Below, piece after piece: positions 2,548 through 9,219 of a stretch of DNA of 64,000 nt (positions within the stretch are counted from its first letter, which is position 1; each line of letters opens with the position of its first letter). The notes under the pieces are model-generated. The model saw nothing but the letters and a program-made list of their open reading frames with translations, was not told where the DNA came from and ran no database searches. The position numbers and the translations under genes are program-made. This DNA is from Melioribacter roseus (GTDB lineage: Bacteria > Bacteroidota > Ignavibacteria > Ignavibacteriales > Melioribacteraceae): assembly GCA_020724265.1 (NCBI GenBank), contig DYHH01000002.1, forward strand, positions 1-64,000, in the 5' to 3' direction.

Positions 2548-2784
2548 TTAATCTTCGAGACCGAGAAAATCGAGAAGACGTTTGTGAGTGTTGTCATCAA
2601 CTTCAACATTATATTTCTTGTAGAATTGAATTGTAGTTTCAACACTTGTGAAATATTTTTTACATGAATCGCAGCTATCAAGATGAGTTTTAATTGCAAC
2701 GCAACGCGGCGAATCAAGTTCTTCACCTAAGTTATCACAAATGTGATTCATTACTTCTTTACATGTAGCTTTTTCAGTGTTCAT
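2548..2784 (-). CDS. Zinc-binding anti-sigma factor (ZAS/zf-HC2 type)
   Basis: This 78-residue soluble protein contains HLDSCDSC, the H-x3-C-x2-C zinc motif of ZAS anti-sigma factors, with another Cys just before it (RCVAIKTH). There is no membrane helix, so it would bind its sigma factor in the cytoplasm. Its start overlaps the 3' end of the ECF sigma gene by 11 nt, the usual translational coupling of a sigma/anti-sigma pair. In characterised ZAS proteins such as RsrA, oxidation of these cysteines frees the sigma factor. A redox role here is inferred from that family and from the OsmC gene immediately downstream. Confidence 0.85.
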   Translation of the reverse strand: MNTEKATCKEVMNHICDNLGEELDSPRCVAIKTHLDSCDSCKKYFTSVETTIQFYKKYNVEVDDNTHKRLLDFLGLED

Positions 2785-3340
2785 AACTAAGTTTTTTATT
2801 CAATTCATTTCTTAAAAATGCCCTTGCTCTATGCAGCCTTGATTTTACCGCCGGAATAGATAGTTCCGTTATTTTCCCGGTTTCTTCTGTTGATAAACCT
2901 TCAACATCTCGTAAAAGAAAAACAACTCGATATTCTGCCGGTAAATTTTGTATTGCGTCATCAAGAATAACTTTTAATTCATTATTCTCTGAAATCTGAT
3001 CCGGAGTAATCTTCCAATCCGCAATATTCTCTTCGGAGATTAAATTATCTTCATCGTCGATAGAACTATAATCATGTTTCTTTTGAGAACGAGCAAGCAT
3101 CAAACAATTATTTGAAACTACAGTATAAAGCCAAGTTGACAATTTTGATTTGCCGCTGAACTGACCAATATTTTTTACCATGCTTAAGAAAGTTTCCTGC
3201 ATAGTATGTTCGGCTCTTTCCTTATTACGGCAAATTTTAAACGAAAAATTATAAACAGTTTGTTCATAATTTTTAACAAGCTGAGCTAATGCAGCTCTAT
3301 CGCCGTTTTGAGCTTTCTGTATAAGTAATTCTTCGCTCAT
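2774..3340 (-). CDS. ECF RNA polymerase sigma factor (sigma-70 family)
   Basis: The 188-residue protein has sigma region 2 at about residues 10-80 (LVKNYEQTVYNFSFKICRN, then STWLYTVVSNNCL for -10 recognition) and region 4 at about 125-180 (NLPAEYRVVFLLRDVEGLS, helix-turn-helix IPAVKSRLHRARAFL). There is no region 1 or 3, which defines the ECF group. It directs core polymerase to a stress regulon. It heads a minus-strand operon with its overlapping zinc anti-sigma factor and OsmC. The 282-bp gap upstream is shared with the divergent signalling gene at 3623. Its own target promoters cannot be recognised from this window. Confidence 0.93.
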   Translation of the reverse strand: MSEELLIQKAQNGDRAALAQLVKNYEQTVYNFSFKICRNKERAEHTMQETFLSMVKNIGQFSGKSKLSTWLYTVVSNNCLMLARSQKKHDYSSIDDEDNLISEENIADWKITPDQISENNELKVILDDAIQNLPAEYRVVFLLRDVEGLSTEETGKITELSIPAVKSRLHRARAFLRNELNKKLSYEH

Positions 3341-3622: not shown

Positions 3623-5884
3623 ATGGAAAATCAATTTTATATTGCCCTTCAAAACAATAAATTATTCTTAGATATTGATTTACAAGAGATGGATCTTTCC
3701 GAGATTAAAGGTGAACTTAAAACTTTAAAAGAAGGCGAGATTCTATTTCGTGAAGAAAATCCTGCCGATAATATTTTTCTTATTGTCAGCGGTGAAATTA
3801 ATCTATTAAAGAAAAAACTTCTTGGTTCAACTAAGTCTTTTATCTTTGGTGAGAATGATTTTTTTGGTTACGATGAAATAGCCGAAGAGACCTCGCGTAC
3901 TTCTACTGCGGTAGCACTTCGAGATTGTTATCTTATATCTTTTTCGGAAGACGAGATTAACAAGCTGATAGAACAGAACCACATGATTAAAACCAATCTC
4001 CTTAATTTTTCGGATATTGAACCGCAAGATGTATATAAACCCGACGAATCCGATACTGATGATGCTGCAAAGAAAGAAAAACAAATACAGACATCTAAAG
4101 AGAAAAGTAAAAAAACTGACGTAGCTTCTTTTGAACAAAGTTTGAAAGACGATTTAATTGATAAACTTGATACAACAATAGAAGAAAATGCAGCACTTTA
4201 TGAAGAAGATTTAGAAGAGCCTTTTGAAAAATTACATACTGAAGAAAAAACCAAAACCTCAAAGGAAGAAGAGAAAGAAAGTGAATTAGAAGAAGAACCG
4301 CTTTTCCCTGATGATGAAGTTGAAAAACAATCAGAAGAAGATTACCTAAAATTAGACGACGAATCAATTGCCGCCATTTCTTCACAGGAAGAAGAATTGG
4401 AAGAAAAACCGCGAAAATTAAATGATTTTGATGAAGCTTTCTTTAAGGCTTTTAATGAAGCTAATGGTGAAAAACCTACGGAAGAAAAGTCCGATGAGCA
4501 AGACATTGTTGAGAAAACTAATATCGAAAAAGATTCACCTGAGTTTCATGAGGATTTAACTGGTGAAGTTTTAGATGAAGAAAGTATTGATATTGATTTG
4601 AATCAGGGGGAAGAAATTTTAGATGAAGAACCTTTAAAAGAAAAATCCTTTGAAGAAAAAATTAATGAACAAGAAAATCAGATTATTAACAGAAAGACAT
4701 CAAATATTTTACTACAATCAGAGCAATTGAAGAAAATAATTAAAGCCGCCCAGTTAGTAAACTCAAACATAAAAATCGATGATGTACTACAAAACATTGT
4801 AAACGTCGCAATTGATCTAACCGAAGCGGACCGAGGGACGCTTTATCTAATAGATAAAGAAAGAAACGAACTTTGGTCTAAAGTACTAATGGGCAACGAG
4901 ATGAGGGAAATCCGGCTTAATATGGGCGAAGGTGTTGCGGGTTGGGTTGCTCAAAATCGCGAGACCGTCAATATTGAAGATGCTGCGAAAGACGAAAGAT
5001 TTAAATCTGATTATGATAAAGCTTCAGGTTACAAAACTCACAGTATGTTATGCTTCCCTTTGAAAAACCGGGAAGATGAAATTGTCGGTGTAATTCAGCT
5101 TCTAAATAGTAAAAATGGAAGTTTCTCCGAGATGGATGAGGAATTTTTAAGTGCTATTTCAATTCAATGTTCATTGGCACTTCAAAATGCAGAAATGCTT
5201 GAAAGACTTTTACAAACCGAACGAGTTCAATCATTGGGTAAGATGACAAACTTTTTAATTCAAGATATTAAGAAACCAGTTCTTGTTAGTAAAAGATATG
5301 CTGAACATTTACAATCCAAAGAGCTTAATAAAGACGCCGCCCAAATTGTAGAAATGATTTTGGAACAATTAACTCAAGTTGCTGATTTAGTCCAAACAAC
5401 CTCAAGTTATTCTGAAGGTAAAGCAGTATTAAGAACGTCACGTGTTAGTTTAAATGAAACTCTGAAAGAGTTTGGTGAAAGATTGGAGTCTTTTGTCAAA
5501 TCAAGAAATTCAACTATAAATAATAAGTTTGATAAAGATCTGAAGGTGCAAATAGACAGCAAAGAATTTTTTCAATGTTATAATCATATTATTAAAAATG
5601 CATGTGATGCTATGCCGGACGGAGGCAGTATTGAAATTTCTACAAAGCAAGAAAGTAATAATGTTGTTATATCTATTAAAGACAGCGGACTCGGTATCCC
5701 CGAAAGTCTTCTAAATAAATTGTTCGATCCTTTTATGACTCACGGAAAGAAAGAGGGTACCGGTTTAGGTCTAACTATAACCAAAAAGATTGTTGAAAGC
5801 CATTCGGGTAAAATTTCTGTTGTAAGTAATTTGGGTGAGGGCGCAACTTTCAAAATTACGCTTCCTATTGCTTCTGCATTGTAA
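3623..5884 (+). CDS. cNMP-binding/GAF/HATPase signalling protein with degenerate H-box
   Basis: The 753 residues divide into four parts. About 15-130 is a Crp-like cyclic-nucleotide-binding fold (EGEILFREENPADNIFLIVSGE). About 135-365 is a very acidic, low-complexity, probably disordered linker. About 370-530 is a GAF domain. The last part is a histidine-kinase-like module with a complete GHKL ATPase: N box NHIIKNACDAMPDGG, G1 DSGLGIP, F box FDPFM, G2 GTGLGL. In the dimerisation helix, where kinases usually have H-[DE]-[IL]-x-x-P, the sequence reads IQDIKKP, so Gln547 replaces the phospho-accepting His. There are no membrane segments. miaA starts 12 nt downstream. It may be a pseudokinase, or it may phosphorylate another residue. 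Confidence 0.82.
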   Translation: MENQFYIALQNNKLFLDIDLQEMDLSEIKGELKTLKEGEILFREENPADNIFLIVSGEINLLKKKLLGSTKSFIFGENDFFGYDEIAEETSRTSTAVALRDCYLISFSEDEINKLIEQNHMIKTNLLNFSDIEPQDVYKPDESDTDDAAKKEKQIQTSKEKSKKTDVASFEQSLKDDLIDKLDTTIEENAALYEEDLEEPFEKLHTEEKTKTSKEEEKESELEEEPLFPDDEVEKQSEEDYLKLDDESIAAISSQEEELEEKPRKLNDFDEAFFKAFNEANGEKPTEEKSDEQDIVEKTNIEKDSPEFHEDLTGEVLDEESIDIDLNQGEEILDEEPLKEKSFEEKINEQENQIINRKTSNILLQSEQLKKIIKAAQLVNSNIKIDDVLQNIVNVAIDLTEADRGTLYLIDKERNELWSKVLMGNEMREIRLNMGEGVAGWVAQNRETVNIEDAAKDERFKSDYDKASGYKTHSMLCFPLKNREDEIVGVIQLLNSKNGSFSEMDEEFLSAISIQCSLALQNAEMLERLLQTERVQSLGKMTNFLIQDIKKPVLVSKRYAEHLQSKELNKDAAQIVEMILEQLTQVADLVQTTSSYSEGKAVLRTSRVSLNETLKEFGERLESFVKSRNSTINNKFDKDLKVQIDSKEFFQCYNHIIKNACDAMPDGGSIEISTKQESNNVVISIKDSGLGIPESLLNKLFDPFMTHGKKEGTGLGLTITKKIVESHSGKISVVSNLGEGATFKITLPIASAL

Positions 5885-5896
5885 CAATGTGGTATA

Positions 5897-6814
5897 ATGA
5901 ATTTCAATTTAATAACTATTCTTGGACCTACAGCCGTAGGGAAAACTAAATTAGCTGTAAAGCTCGCATATTATTTTAACGGCGAAATTATTTCGGCTGA
6001 CTCACGACAGGTATATGTTGGTATGGATATTGGCACAGGAAAAGATCTTGCCGATTACGTTATCGATGATTTTAAAATCCCTTATCATCTGGTTGATGTT
6101 ATTTCTCCAAAAGAAGAATTTGATTTATACAAATTCATTAAGCTATTTTACGAAGCATATAATGTAATTAAGAAAAATAAAAGAACACCGTTTTTAGTTG
6201 GGGGTACCGGGCTTTACCTCCATTCTATTTTAACTAATTACAATCTGACAGATGTTGACTTTAACTCGATTAGAGCTAAAGAATTATCAAAACTAGATAA
6301 TGATTCATTAAGAAAGATTCTTCTGCAATCAAATAAAGATTTACACAATACTACAGACCTCATTGAAAAAGAAAGAATTATAAGAGCCATTTTAATTGAG
6401 GAAGACGAAACAAAAAATTCAAATCATACCAAAACTATTTACCCCTTTGTTCTCGGAGTTTATCTCGATCGAAATGAAATAAAAAAAAGAATAACTGCAA
6501 GATTGAAGGAAAGACTAAAAAACGGTATGATAGAAGAAGTTGAAGAATTGTTAAAGAAAGGAATTACACATGAAAAACTAGAATTCTTCGGGCTTGAGTA
6601 TAAGTATGTAAGTTTATTTTTACAGAATAAACTTAACTATAATGATATGTACCAAAAGCTAAATAGTGCTATTCATAATTTTGCAAAAAAACAAATGACA
6701 TGGTTTAGAAAAATTGAAAATGAGGGTTTGCAAATTCATTGGCTTAAAGGAACTGATTTTGAAACAGCAAAAGATCTGATTGAACAAGAATATTTAGGAA
6801 ATGTTAATGAGTGA
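5897..6814 (+). CDS. miaA: tRNA dimethylallyltransferase
   Basis: MiaA transfers a dimethylallyl group from DMAPP to N6 of A37 in tRNAs that read UNN codons. The 305-residue length is normal for the family. The N-terminal P-loop GPTAVGKT (residues 10-17), the ISADSRQVYVGMDIGTGK motif, HLVDV and VGGTGLYLHSI are all conserved in order, followed by the helical tRNA-binding insert and a C-terminal KKQMTWFRK motif. It starts 12 nt after the upstream signalling gene and overlaps the downstream glycosyltransferase by 8 nt, so the three are probably co-transcribed. The call is secure. Confidence 0.96.
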   Translation: MNFNLITILGPTAVGKTKLAVKLAYYFNGEIISADSRQVYVGMDIGTGKDLADYVIDDFKIPYHLVDVISPKEEFDLYKFIKLFYEAYNVIKKNKRTPFLVGGTGLYLHSILTNYNLTDVDFNSIRAKELSKLDNDSLRKILLQSNKDLHNTTDLIEKERIIRAILIEEDETKNSNHTKTIYPFVLGVYLDRNEIKKRITARLKERLKNGMIEEVEELLKKGITHEKLEFFGLEYKYVSLFLQNKLNYNDMYQKLNSAIHNFAKKQMTWFRKIENEGLQIHWLKGTDFETAKDLIEQEYLGNVNE

Positions 6815-8087
6815 TTTCATTCCTAAACAGGTTGAACAATATCTTAACAATAGAGCCGAAAAAAAATGGTTGGTAGAGAATAAAGGAAATTATTTCCGGA
6901 CTGTAATTGTTGTGCCTGCAATTAAAGAACATGATAACATTCCTAAACTACTTACTTCTTTGTCAAAAAACGAACCTGCTGCAATTAGAAATACTTCTAT
7001 TTTATTTGTTGTAAATAATTCTGATGAGAAATCTAAAGAAGTTATCGATGAAAATATCCTTACAATCGAATTGTTACTTAAGTTAAAAAGTAAACCTAAT
7101 CAATACGGGTTGAATATTGATTTTATTGACGCTGCTTCAGAGAACAAATGTTTACCGAGAAAATATGCCGGTGTCGGACTTGCAAGAAAGATCGGTATGG
7201 ATCAAGCTTTATACTATTTTGATTATTCTAAAAAAGGCAATGCAATTGTATGCTTGGATGCCGATTGTGAAGTCGATGCTAATTATTTAACCGAAATTCA
7301 AAAATACTATGATGATAATAATCATACGGCAGTAATAAAATATGAGCACAAGCTTGATAACGAAGCAATTATAAATTATGAAATTTTTCTTCGATATTAT
7401 GTGCTGGGATTAAAATTTGCAAAATCATCTTATGCTTATCATTCAATTGGATCGTGTATTACCGTTAGTCCGATTACATACACAAAAATTGGGGGTATGA
7501 ATAAGAAAAAAGCAGGTGAAGATTTTTATTTTTTAGAGAAAGCCGCTAAGCAGGGAAAAATTAATTCTATTAATACTACTACGGTTTATCCATCATCAAG
7601 GAAATCATGGCGTGTACCTTTTGGAACGGGACAACGAATCACACGCTATTATGAAAAAGTGCGTGATGAATACATTCTGTATAATGCAGATTCGTTTGTG
7701 GTTCTAAAAGAAATTTTGGAAGAATATAACAATGAAAAGACAAATGATCCCAGCGAAATATTAAACTCGGCAAAATCTATTTCAAAAGCTTTATATGATT
7801 TTTTGATTAATAACCAATTTGAATCGGCTTTAAATAAAATTATTGAAAACGCAGCGACAGTTGAACAAGTAAATCATCAAAAAAAAATATGGTTTGATGC
7901 TTTTAAAACTATGAAACTAATTCACTATCTGCGCGACAATGGATATACGGAAGAACCAATGTTTACATCTTTGAACAGAATTTTTGATTTATACGGTATA
8001 AATGATTTTAATAAATATATTCTTAATGATATTCCCCCTGTGGAAAAGCAAATTGAATACCTGGACCTAATGAGAGTCCTGACCTAA
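6807..8087 (+). CDS. Glycosyltransferase family 2-like protein
   Basis: The start is set at the ATG at 6807, which has aggaa six bases upstream; an in-frame ATG at 6801 touches that site directly. The 426-residue protein begins its GT-A fold with [18 protein letters not shown] and has an acidic nucleotide-sugar/metal motif CLDADCEVD. It then shows the helical acceptor half seen in GT2 enzymes ([18 protein letters not shown]). There are no membrane helices, so it is cytoplasmic. It overlaps miaA by 8 nt and lies apart from the main glycan cluster. Donor sugar and acceptor are unknown. The C-terminal 130 residues, helical, are not a domain I recognise. Confidence 0.75.
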
Positions 8088-8095
8088 ACATCATC

Positions 8096-8127
8096 TTAGA
8101 TTTTACAATTCAACTTTGCTATATTTG
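8096..8127 (+). promoter_or_regulatory. Possible Bacteroidota-type promoter for prfA
   Basis: tatatttg at 8120-8127 is a full match to the TAnnTTTG -7 box. An imperfect -33 element (ttag for TTTG, 8096-8099) lies 20 nt upstream. Transcription would begin near 8131, about 18 nt before the prfA ATG. It is a pattern match only. Confidence 0.4.
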
Positions 8128-8148
8128 ATTCCTATTTTTGAGGAAGTA

Positions 8149-9219
8149 ATGGAACTATACGAGAAGTTAAAAGAAGTAAAAGCAAAATTCGATAGAATTA
8201 ATGAACAGTTATCCGATCCGGCTAATTTATCGGATCAAGAAAAGTTGATCAAACTCAGCAAAGAAAGAAGTCATCTTTCGGATATTGTGGAAGCATTTGA
8301 TGAATACGAAATAGTAATAACAAATCTTAAAGAGAATAAAGAAATTTTGGATACATCCAAAGATAAAGAGTTAATTGAAATTGCCGAAGCTGAAACTGAA
8401 GAATTGGAATCGAAGCAAGAAGAACTTGAAGAAAAAATTAAATTTCTTTTGATTCCCAAGGACCCCGACGATGATAAACCGGCAATTATGGAAATCCGTG
8501 CCGGTACTGGCGGGGATGAAGCAGGTCTTTTTGCCGCAGACCTTTTAAGAATGTACACTCGATATGCAGAAATTAAAGGGTGGAAATACGAACTCATTGA
8601 TTTAAATGAAGGTGCAATGGGTGCAGTTAAAGAAGTAGTGTTAAATATTACCGGAAACAGTGTTTACGGTAATTTAAAATTTGAAAGTGGTGTACATAGA
8701 GTTCAACGTGTTCCCGAAACTGAAGCAAGCGGAAGAGTTCATACCTCTGCTGCATCAGTGGTAGTTTTACCTGAAGCAGAAGATGTTGAAGTGGATGTTG
8801 ATCCCAATGACATTAGAGTTGACGTTTACAGAAGCGGCGGAGCCGGCGGACAGAACGTTAACAAAGTCGAAACTGCAATAAGGCTTACACACATTCCAAC
8901 CGGAATTGTAGTTCAATGTCAGGATGAAAGATCACAACTAAAAAACCGTCAAAAAGCAATGAAAGTTTTAAAGGCAAGATTATATGACATGAAACTTCAA
9001 GAACATAACAGTAATATTGCACAGCAAAGAAAAACAATAGTTAAGAGCGGTGATAGAAGTGATAAAATACGAACATATAACTTTCCGCAAAATAGAGTTA
9101 CAGATCATAGAATTGGATTAACACTTTACAACCTATCCGAAGTTATGGAAGGCGATATAGATGAGTTAATAGAAAAAATAAAAATCGCAGATAGAACTGA
9201 AAAGTTAAAAGCGGTTTGA
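8149..9219 (+). CDS. prfA: Peptide chain release factor 1
   Basis: RF1 recognises UAA and UAG stop codons and triggers peptidyl-tRNA hydrolysis. The catalytic GGQ lies at residues 233-235 ([15 protein letters not shown]), the expected place. The decoding region reads [15 protein letters not shown], with the PxT pattern of RF1 and not the SPF of RF2. I start it at the ATG at 8149 because AGGA at 8141-8144 is correctly spaced and [10 protein letters not shown] matches the usual N-terminus; an upstream in-frame TTG at 8116 would add 11 unlikely residues. At 356 residues it is normal in length. It converges on the flippase gene with only 4 nt between stop codons. Confidence 0.96.

Follow-up and report, generated by a model that had tools for sequence, protein, structure and literature searches.

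A Histidine Kinase-Like Protein Without Its Phospho-Acceptor Histidine, Encoded Beside a Second MiaA-Type Gene in the Ignavibacteriales

A Sensor Kinase Layout With Glutamine in the H-Box

The window analyzed here, a 64,000-nucleotide stretch of contig DYHH01000002.1 from Melioribacter roseus (assembly GCA_020724265.1), carries near its start a gene whose product resembles a sensor histidine kinase but has glutamine in place of the phospho-acceptor histidine. The question is whether this gene is misread or decaying, whether phosphotransfer has moved to another residue or protein, or whether the product now does something else. Histidine pseudokinases are a known kind of protein, and to our knowledge few natural ones, e.g., DivL and RcsD, have a clear evolutionary record. 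The gene and the parts of its product are as follows.

3623–5884, + strand: pseudo-histidine kinase (pHK), 753 amino acids, with the order CNB, acidic linker, GAF, DHp without His, HATPase_c
3719–3979, + strand: CNB domain (Pfam cNMP_binding), residues 33–119; Tyr at column 83 (pocket Glu), Arg92 kept
4013–4714, + strand: acidic linker, residues 131–364, 234 amino acids, 35% Asp plus Glu
4775–5182, + strand: GAF domain, residues 385–520 (Pfam); Ser at column 496 (“NKFDE” Lys)
5228–5320, + strand: DHp helix 1, residues 536–566, QSLGKMTNFLIQDIKKPVLVSKRYAEHLQSK
5261–5263, + strand: codon of Gln547, which replaces the phospho-acceptor His in the alignment column
5555–5869, + strand: HATPase_c (CA) domain, residues 645–749 (Pfam); His655 in the first N-box Asn column

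The pHK frame opens with ATG and contains no internal stop. Its H-box reads LIQDIKKP, with Gln547 in the phospho-acceptor column, and Pfam HisKA gave no match in the protein; HATPase_c was the best Pfam model for the ATPase part (E = 2e-25), the match to HATPase_c_2 being weak. In phmmer searches, residues 521–753 aligned to histidine kinases of known structure, in several cases from DHp through CA, and Gln547 fell in the phospho-acceptor column of 3a0r and 3d36. These columns, together with the 32 histidine-bearing relatives described below, bear out an earlier note, made from the letters of the window, that Gln547 replaces His in the H-box, and the acidic linker of 230 residues that it described agrees with the length measured here. 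Two of its other descriptions hold in part. The ATPase half, called complete, does have the G1 (D687, G689, G691), F, and G2 (G714, G716) boxes as well as Asn659, but not the first N-box Asn, whose column holds His655; the cyclic-nucleotide-binding domain has the CNB fold according to Pfam, but with Tyr83 for the pocket Glu. An AlphaFold model of pHK made from three sequences was set aside, its mean pLDDT being 36.5.

Residue 547 Across Relatives

We aligned 137 proteins, drawn from the family, order, and class to which the genome of the window belongs and comprising 101 pHK members, 32 relatives that bear the histidine (H-bearing relatives), and four paralogs. The members represent one protein from each of 101 genomes (100 Ignavibacteriales and one other genome of the class, G410), and were split by divergence into a main group of 87 and a deep group of 14, a division of our own. 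The H-bearing relatives, which belong to eight other families of the class, were fetched from among 101 class genomes outside the order with a match at E ≤ 1e-60, a count that leaves out G410 since it carries pHK. Set aside before counting were the paralogs (L065–L068, with HEIRTP), three 100-base filler pieces (L069, L076, and L147), two entries that gave the same matches as L012 and L014 (L009 and L010), a more distant kinase (L011), and other proteins of the window’s own genome (L002–L008).

Histidine was absent from column 547 in 100 of the 101 members, which are distributed as Q 59, S 13, E 9, N 6, D 4, R 3, Y 2, G 2, T 1, K 1, and H 1, whereas all 32 H-bearing relatives have it, in each case as HD. 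Pfam HisKA (E ≤ 0.01) matched 15 of the 101 members vs. 32 of 32 H-bearing relatives. This alignment of orthologs supports the suggestion in the earlier note that the protein is a pseudokinase, with His in a single member, L117. The genome of that member is 68% complete and the contig is short; its codon is CAC where relatives next to it have TAC (Tyr), so that a small group may have seen a reversion to histidine.

The H-bearing relatives (L082–L090 and L127–L150) are CNB-GAF-HisKA-HATPase_c kinases with the same domain order as pHK in all three that were scanned whole, and with a CNB in 32 of 32. They share 37–43% identity with pHK from GAF to the end, with a profile–profile match of E = 1e-116. 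They differ in the H-box, which reads HD[IL][KR][NSG]P, and in an N box that starts with the canonical Asn; they also have the CNB pocket Glu, the GAF Lys (31 of 32), and a linker of 28 amino acids.

The presence or absence of His was placed on an unrooted tree of 129 rows, built by a quick method that calls for caution over long branches that meet, with columns 547, 551, and 562 removed and with four partial rows (L070, L080, L118, and L120) and the four paralogs omitted. Two changes suffice, one between the groups and one at L117. Because the tree is unrooted, this number cannot separate loss from gain, and we infer a loss from the nature of histidine kinases.

As a control within the genome of the window, we considered its 61 other kinase-type matches, some of which cover GAF or CNB only, and fetched 40 stretches. 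Each of the 39 other kinases whose DHp was covered by a fetched stretch carries the H-box His (38 scored by script and L205 by eye); the fortieth, L211, whose tail is also in L195, reads AHDLKNP with the His present, and the partial L177 (+) was left unscored. When the genome was searched with an H-bearing relative, the best match was pHK itself (41%), followed by one of 31% over the kinase part only; the genome thus has no additional kinase of the H-bearing type.

Further Changes in the pHK Clade

Residue 547 is not the only position at which members depart from H-bearing relatives. At H+4, the main group has K in 83 of 87, the H-bearing relatives have N, S, or G in 32 of 32, and the deep group has N, S, T, P, or G. 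The first N-box Asn, present in all 32 H-bearing relatives, is Q in 14 of 14 deep members and in the main group is distributed as 57 H, 18 Q, 9 N, 2 S, and 1 E of 87. In the NKFDE motif of the GAF, 31 of 32 H-bearing relatives keep the Lys, whereas 75 of 87 members of the main group and 12 of 14 of the deep group have Ser; pHK has Ser496 there and keeps the remaining NKFDE residues. All 32 H-bearing relatives have the CNB pocket Glu, as do 11 of 14 members of the deep group and 21 of 74 of the main group; the last denominator leaves out the 13 of 87 main rows in which no CNB was detected, six of them with under 60 residues ahead of the GAF in the piece read. NKFDE (GAF) and phosphate-binding cassette (the site of the CNB pocket Glu and Arg) are used here as the customary motif names, with the functions usually assigned to their residues.

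Two class III cyclase matches in the same genome mean that a cyclic nucleotide ligand could exist. We considered pHK as a cAMP/cGMP receptor and set this aside, given that it has other residues in place of both the Glu of the CNB pocket and the Lys of the GAF motif; binding of cAMP or cGMP is doubtful because the pocket Glu is absent (Tyr83).

The linker from the CNB to the region before the GAF has also changed, from 28 amino acids in 32 of 32 H-bearing relatives to 131–182 in the deep group and 63–466 in the main group (median about 250), a range that excludes L103, which measured 0 because its match starts late, and G243, whose linker has about 1,150 residues. As a side observation, 20 of 94 linkers contain (D/E)DGIP(K/R) and 22 contain a DALFxxL-like motif; the linker of pHK has neither.

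Other positions are retained. In the main group, the acidic residue at H+1 (Asp548) is present in 85 of 87, and Pro552, Asn659, and the G1 and G2 glycines are nearly invariant (G714 and G716 in 86 of 86, with one gap). His562, in the motif RYAEHL, occurs in 87 of 87 main members and is V, L, I, M, or A in the 32 H-bearing relatives, and might thus be taken for a phospho-acceptor that has moved along the helix, in line with the earlier note’s proviso of phosphorylation at a nearby His. We judge this very improbable. Only one of the 14 deep members has His562, and since the other 13 miss it although they too are without His547, it does not explain the loss; moreover, it lies 15 residues, or about four helical turns, from the ATP-facing position and is followed by Leu563 rather than by an acidic residue.

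Constraint on the Histidine-Less Helix

Compared with a congener whose protein is 92% identical, pHK has dN/dS values of 0.025 for the CNB, 0.044 for the GAF, 0.013 for the S-helix plus DHp, 0.039 for the CA, and 0.21 for the linker, the whole range being far below 1. Against two more distant congeners, the S-helix plus DHp gave 0.035 and 0.046, at high synonymous divergence and with other parts near saturation. In the main group, residues 537–558, centered on the position of the missing His, form the most conserved 22-residue segment of 363 from the GAF to the end; the corresponding top segment in the H-bearing group is the F/G2 region. Two results point the other way. The mean entropy of the helix, 0.78 in the main group vs. 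0.75 in the H-bearing group, shows no extra conservation in the former, and among deep members the CA motifs surpass the helix in conservation (mean entropy 0.57 for the N box, 1.29 for F–G2, and 1.57 for the helix). Overall, the DHp has remained under purifying selection despite the loss of its His, less strongly so in the deep group.

These values also bear on whether the gene is an artefact or in decay, whether by sequencing error, which the earlier note had allowed for, or as a pseudogene. Beyond the missing residue itself nothing points that way, and the same loss in 100 of 101 genomes, dN/dS far below 1, and a frame without internal stops practically exclude it.

Gene Neighborhood and MiaA2

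The genes around pHK in the window are as follows.

5897–6814, + strand: second MiaA-type prenyltransferase (MiaA2), 305 amino acids; TIGR00174 at 172 bits vs. a cut-off of 148.65
6801–8087, + strand: glycosyltransferase family-2-like protein (GT-like), 428 amino acids, directly downstream of MiaA2
8116–9219, + strand: prfA (release factor 1), found in 12 of 16 pHK neighborhoods
2774–3340, − strand: ECF sigma factor, divergent, 188 amino acids, in 15 of 16 pHK neighborhoods; Pfam on the ortholog L152
2548–2784, − strand: small zinc-finger protein (zf-HC2-like), a probable anti-sigma partner, in 15 of 16 neighborhoods; Pfam on L152 just below the curated cut-off

The arrangement with the divergent ECF sigma and zf-HC2-like genes on one side and the MiaA-type and glycosyltransferase-2-like genes downstream was found in 15 of the 16 pHK neighborhoods. 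No member of the ECF sigma, zf-HC2, MiaA2, GT, or prfA families was found in five neighborhoods of H-bearing relatives, in one of which (L169) the gene picker missed the H-bearing gene itself.

MiaA2 was detected at E ≤ 1e-50 in 153 of 164 genomes of the order. Among the 98 genomes with a recorded position for both genes, pHK lies directly upstream of MiaA2 on the same strand in 93, with gaps between match ends of 7–345 bases (below 100 in 89); G440 and G429, with a MiaA2 match but no recorded position, fall outside the 98. The exceptions are G059, G016 and G417, in which pHK is at a contig end in the latter two, and G243 and G441, which belong to one genus and have MiaA2 elsewhere. The GT-like gene was found in a class-wide sample in 90 genomes of the order and, at lower scores, in two others. 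Within the order, its best match immediately follows MiaA2 in 76 genomes (with gaps of 466–991 bases in five of the 76) and lies elsewhere in 14, a recount that ruled out an invariant triad of pHK, MiaA2, and glycosyltransferase and leaves the pHK–MiaA2 pair as the only one close to fixed.

Nearly all relatives examined in the order share the loss at residue 547, and most adjoin this same tRNA-modification-type gene; pHK is therefore probably a repurposed signaling protein rather than a broken or misread gene. The partnership also points to MiaA2 as a possible target of pHK.

Diverged Copies and the Use of ATP

A pHK match at E ≤ 1e-55 was missing in 64 of the 164 genomes of the order, 12 of which were opened. 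Loss of pHK from these genomes, considered as an explanation, was rejected: 11 of the 12 hold a diverged copy (23–34% identity) directly upstream of MiaA2, with the GT-like gene again downstream of MiaA2, and in the twelfth, G043, MiaA2 is absent. None of the 11 copies has His at the aligned position, the DHp alignment being unsure in L217, L219, L222, and L224. Three of the 11 are short (371–387 amino acids), and the two of these that were scanned (L217 and L219) consist of CNB and HATPase_c with no GAF. In L214, L215, L220, and L221 the G1 or G2 motifs are altered while the gene context is kept. Because these motifs are altered in several diverged members, the use of ATP may not be common to the whole family.

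The state of the ATP pocket matters for two readings in which pHK would still be an enzyme. In the first, pHK would pair with an H-bearing kinase, or with a separate phosphotransfer protein, and its CA would phosphorylate the partner’s histidine. Such a trans-acting kinase is conceivable because the CA motifs are well conserved in most members: the main group keeps the ATP-pocket motifs and the acidic H+1 residue, and the deep group conserves the CA above the DHp helix. Possible partners exist as well, in that 40 or more other kinases of the window’s genome have the His. There is also precedent in Corynebacterium, where heterodimers of ChrS and HrrS are reported and a ChrS pseudokinase acts through HrrS (PMC9491836), which suggests that a dead kinase can work via a partner kinase; that case differs in being a CA-domain frameshift in a laboratory-evolved strain, not a loss of the His. 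We nonetheless consider a trans-acting kinase unlikely, given that the first N-box Asn and the H+4 residue changed in the same clade, that the four copies with altered G1 or G2 occupy the same gene context, and that no kinase or response regulator was found among the identified families conserved beside pHK in the neighborhoods read.

In the second, the protein would be a GHKL ATPase, or a Ser/Thr-type protein kinase acting on another protein such as the ECF sigma/zinc-finger pair, MiaA2, or the GT-like protein. The intact G1 and G2 of the main group fit such an activity, as do the divergent ECF sigma and zf-HC2-like genes. The better Pfam fit to HATPase_c than to HATPase_c_2 speaks against it, as do the altered G boxes of several members whose downstream genes are unchanged, and we hold it to be quite unlikely.

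Comparison With Known Pseudokinases and a Proposed Role

The closest parallel is DivL, which according to the parts of its description used here (PMC4211667) has a histidine-kinase fold in which the phospho-acceptor is replaced (Tyr550) while the other boxes are kept, a pattern that pHK shares except at the first N-box Asn. The same account reports that DivL is without kinase and phosphatase activity and binds DivK~P via its DHp, that a conserved patch lies near the Tyr550 position, and that the Y550H change does not restore autonomous kinase activity. The DivL structure 4q20_A matches pHK at E = 3.2e-16, over residues 569–748 only, i.e., past the H-box. DivL differs in having PAS input and Tyr rather than Gln or Ser, and in its occurrence in Caulobacter and other alphaproteobacteria; the CNB, the acidic linker, and the MiaA link of pHK are not among the features named for DivL in those parts (PMC4211667). 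Orthology with DivL was ruled out, as pHK has CNB and GAF instead of PAS, and Tyr stands at column 547 in only two of 101 members. RcsD is likewise a natural histidine-kinase-like protein without the conserved His, but is described in the sections consulted as a membrane protein with an Hpt domain that forms part of the Rcs relay, and is reported to self-phosphorylate despite the missing His (PMC3762810), which is a caution against equating that absence with inactivity.

Our preferred explanation, which we regard as probable, is that pHK is a histidine pseudokinase of the DivL kind that works by binding and is genetically coupled to MiaA2. An ordinary CNB-GAF sensor histidine kinase would have lost its phospho-acceptor His in, or before, the ancestor of the Ignavibacteriales, and the His-less protein would then have become fixed in a new job that does not involve phosphotransfer. 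The DHp helix pair would most likely serve as a docking surface for a partner protein, with the GAF and the altered CNB, on its long acidic tether, as the presumed input, and ATP bound by the CA would act as a conformational modulator rather than as a phosphate donor to the protein’s own DHp. The partner could be a kinase or response regulator, as for DivL, or a product of the pHK gene cluster itself.

One ancient change at residue 547, the constraint on the helix in the main group, and the lineages in which ATP-pocket motifs are altered or the GAF is missing while the gene stays in place together fit a family whose common denominator would be something other than phosphotransfer. Two observations sit less easily with parts of this explanation. 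The invariant ATP-pocket residues and the Asp548 of the main group would be needless in a mere scaffold, and the better conservation of the CA than of the DHp helix in the deep group counts against the helix as the functional surface common to all members.

A more specific version would make pHK, throughout the order, a non-phosphorylating subunit that controls MiaA2, and the GT-like enzyme where it is adjacent, by direct binding with no response regulator between; this is a tentative possibility to which we give a low probability. If MiaA2 is what pHK binds, a sensor would be wired straight to tRNA or nucleotide modification, and the link raises the testable idea that prenylation of tRNA or nucleotides is under direct sensory control.

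In the open-licence PMC literature we found no description of this CNB-GAF family, of its order-wide spread, or of its coupling to a second MiaA. The family offers a single change at a defined branch, H-bearing relatives for comparison, about 100 species, and a nearly fixed gene partner, and includes several lineages that later lost ATP-pocket motifs or the GAF, so that one can ask which parts of a histidine kinase stay needed after phosphotransfer is gone. As to MiaA itself, the genome of the window has another MiaA-like gene (G000:C21:133567-134457), 34% identical to MiaA2, and two searched genomes with H-bearing relatives have one MiaA each (E ≤ 1e-15).

Genes adjoining the probable histidine pseudokinase

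The MiaA-type prenyltransferase gene that adjoins the gene of the probable histidine pseudokinase (pHK) in the window has a match in 153 of the 164 Ignavibacteriales genomes searched (E ≤ 1e-50). The genome containing the window has two MiaA-type copies, 34% identical, one of them (MiaA2) directly downstream of pHK and followed by a glycosyltransferase-like gene:

Window 5897-6814 (+): MiaA2
G000:C21:133567-134457: the other MiaA-type copy
Window 6801-8087 (+): glycosyltransferase-2-like protein, for which NCBIfam yields no more than a weak hit to TIGR04283 (37 vs. 182 bits)

Four diverged pHKs (loci L214, L215, L220, and L221) have altered ATP-binding motifs, yet their MiaA2 and glycosyltransferase neighbors are unchanged. 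Two genomes with a pHK orthologue, G243 and G441, have MiaA2 sited elsewhere, away from pHK.

Variation among pHK members and paralogues

Among pHK members, His occupies the phospho-acceptor column (547) only in L117 (G048:C117), where the codon is CAC rather than the TAC of its relatives; this protein retains Lys four residues on and His at column 562. Judged from these codons, L117 may be a natural revertant at column 547. A second GAF-kinase paralogue, found in several genomes (L065-L068; 36–39% identity to the window pHK), has the H-box HEIRTP, and few residues precede the GAF domain in L066-L068.

The acidic linker between the cyclic-nucleotide-binding and GAF domains reaches about 1,150 residues in the 1668-aa pHK of G243 (L162:2200-7206). 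In some 20 orthologues, L026 and L031 among them, short motifs such as NEDGIPK and (N/D)DALFxxLSG recur within a linker that varies elsewhere along its length. These motifs, which may serve in docking, are absent from the window protein.
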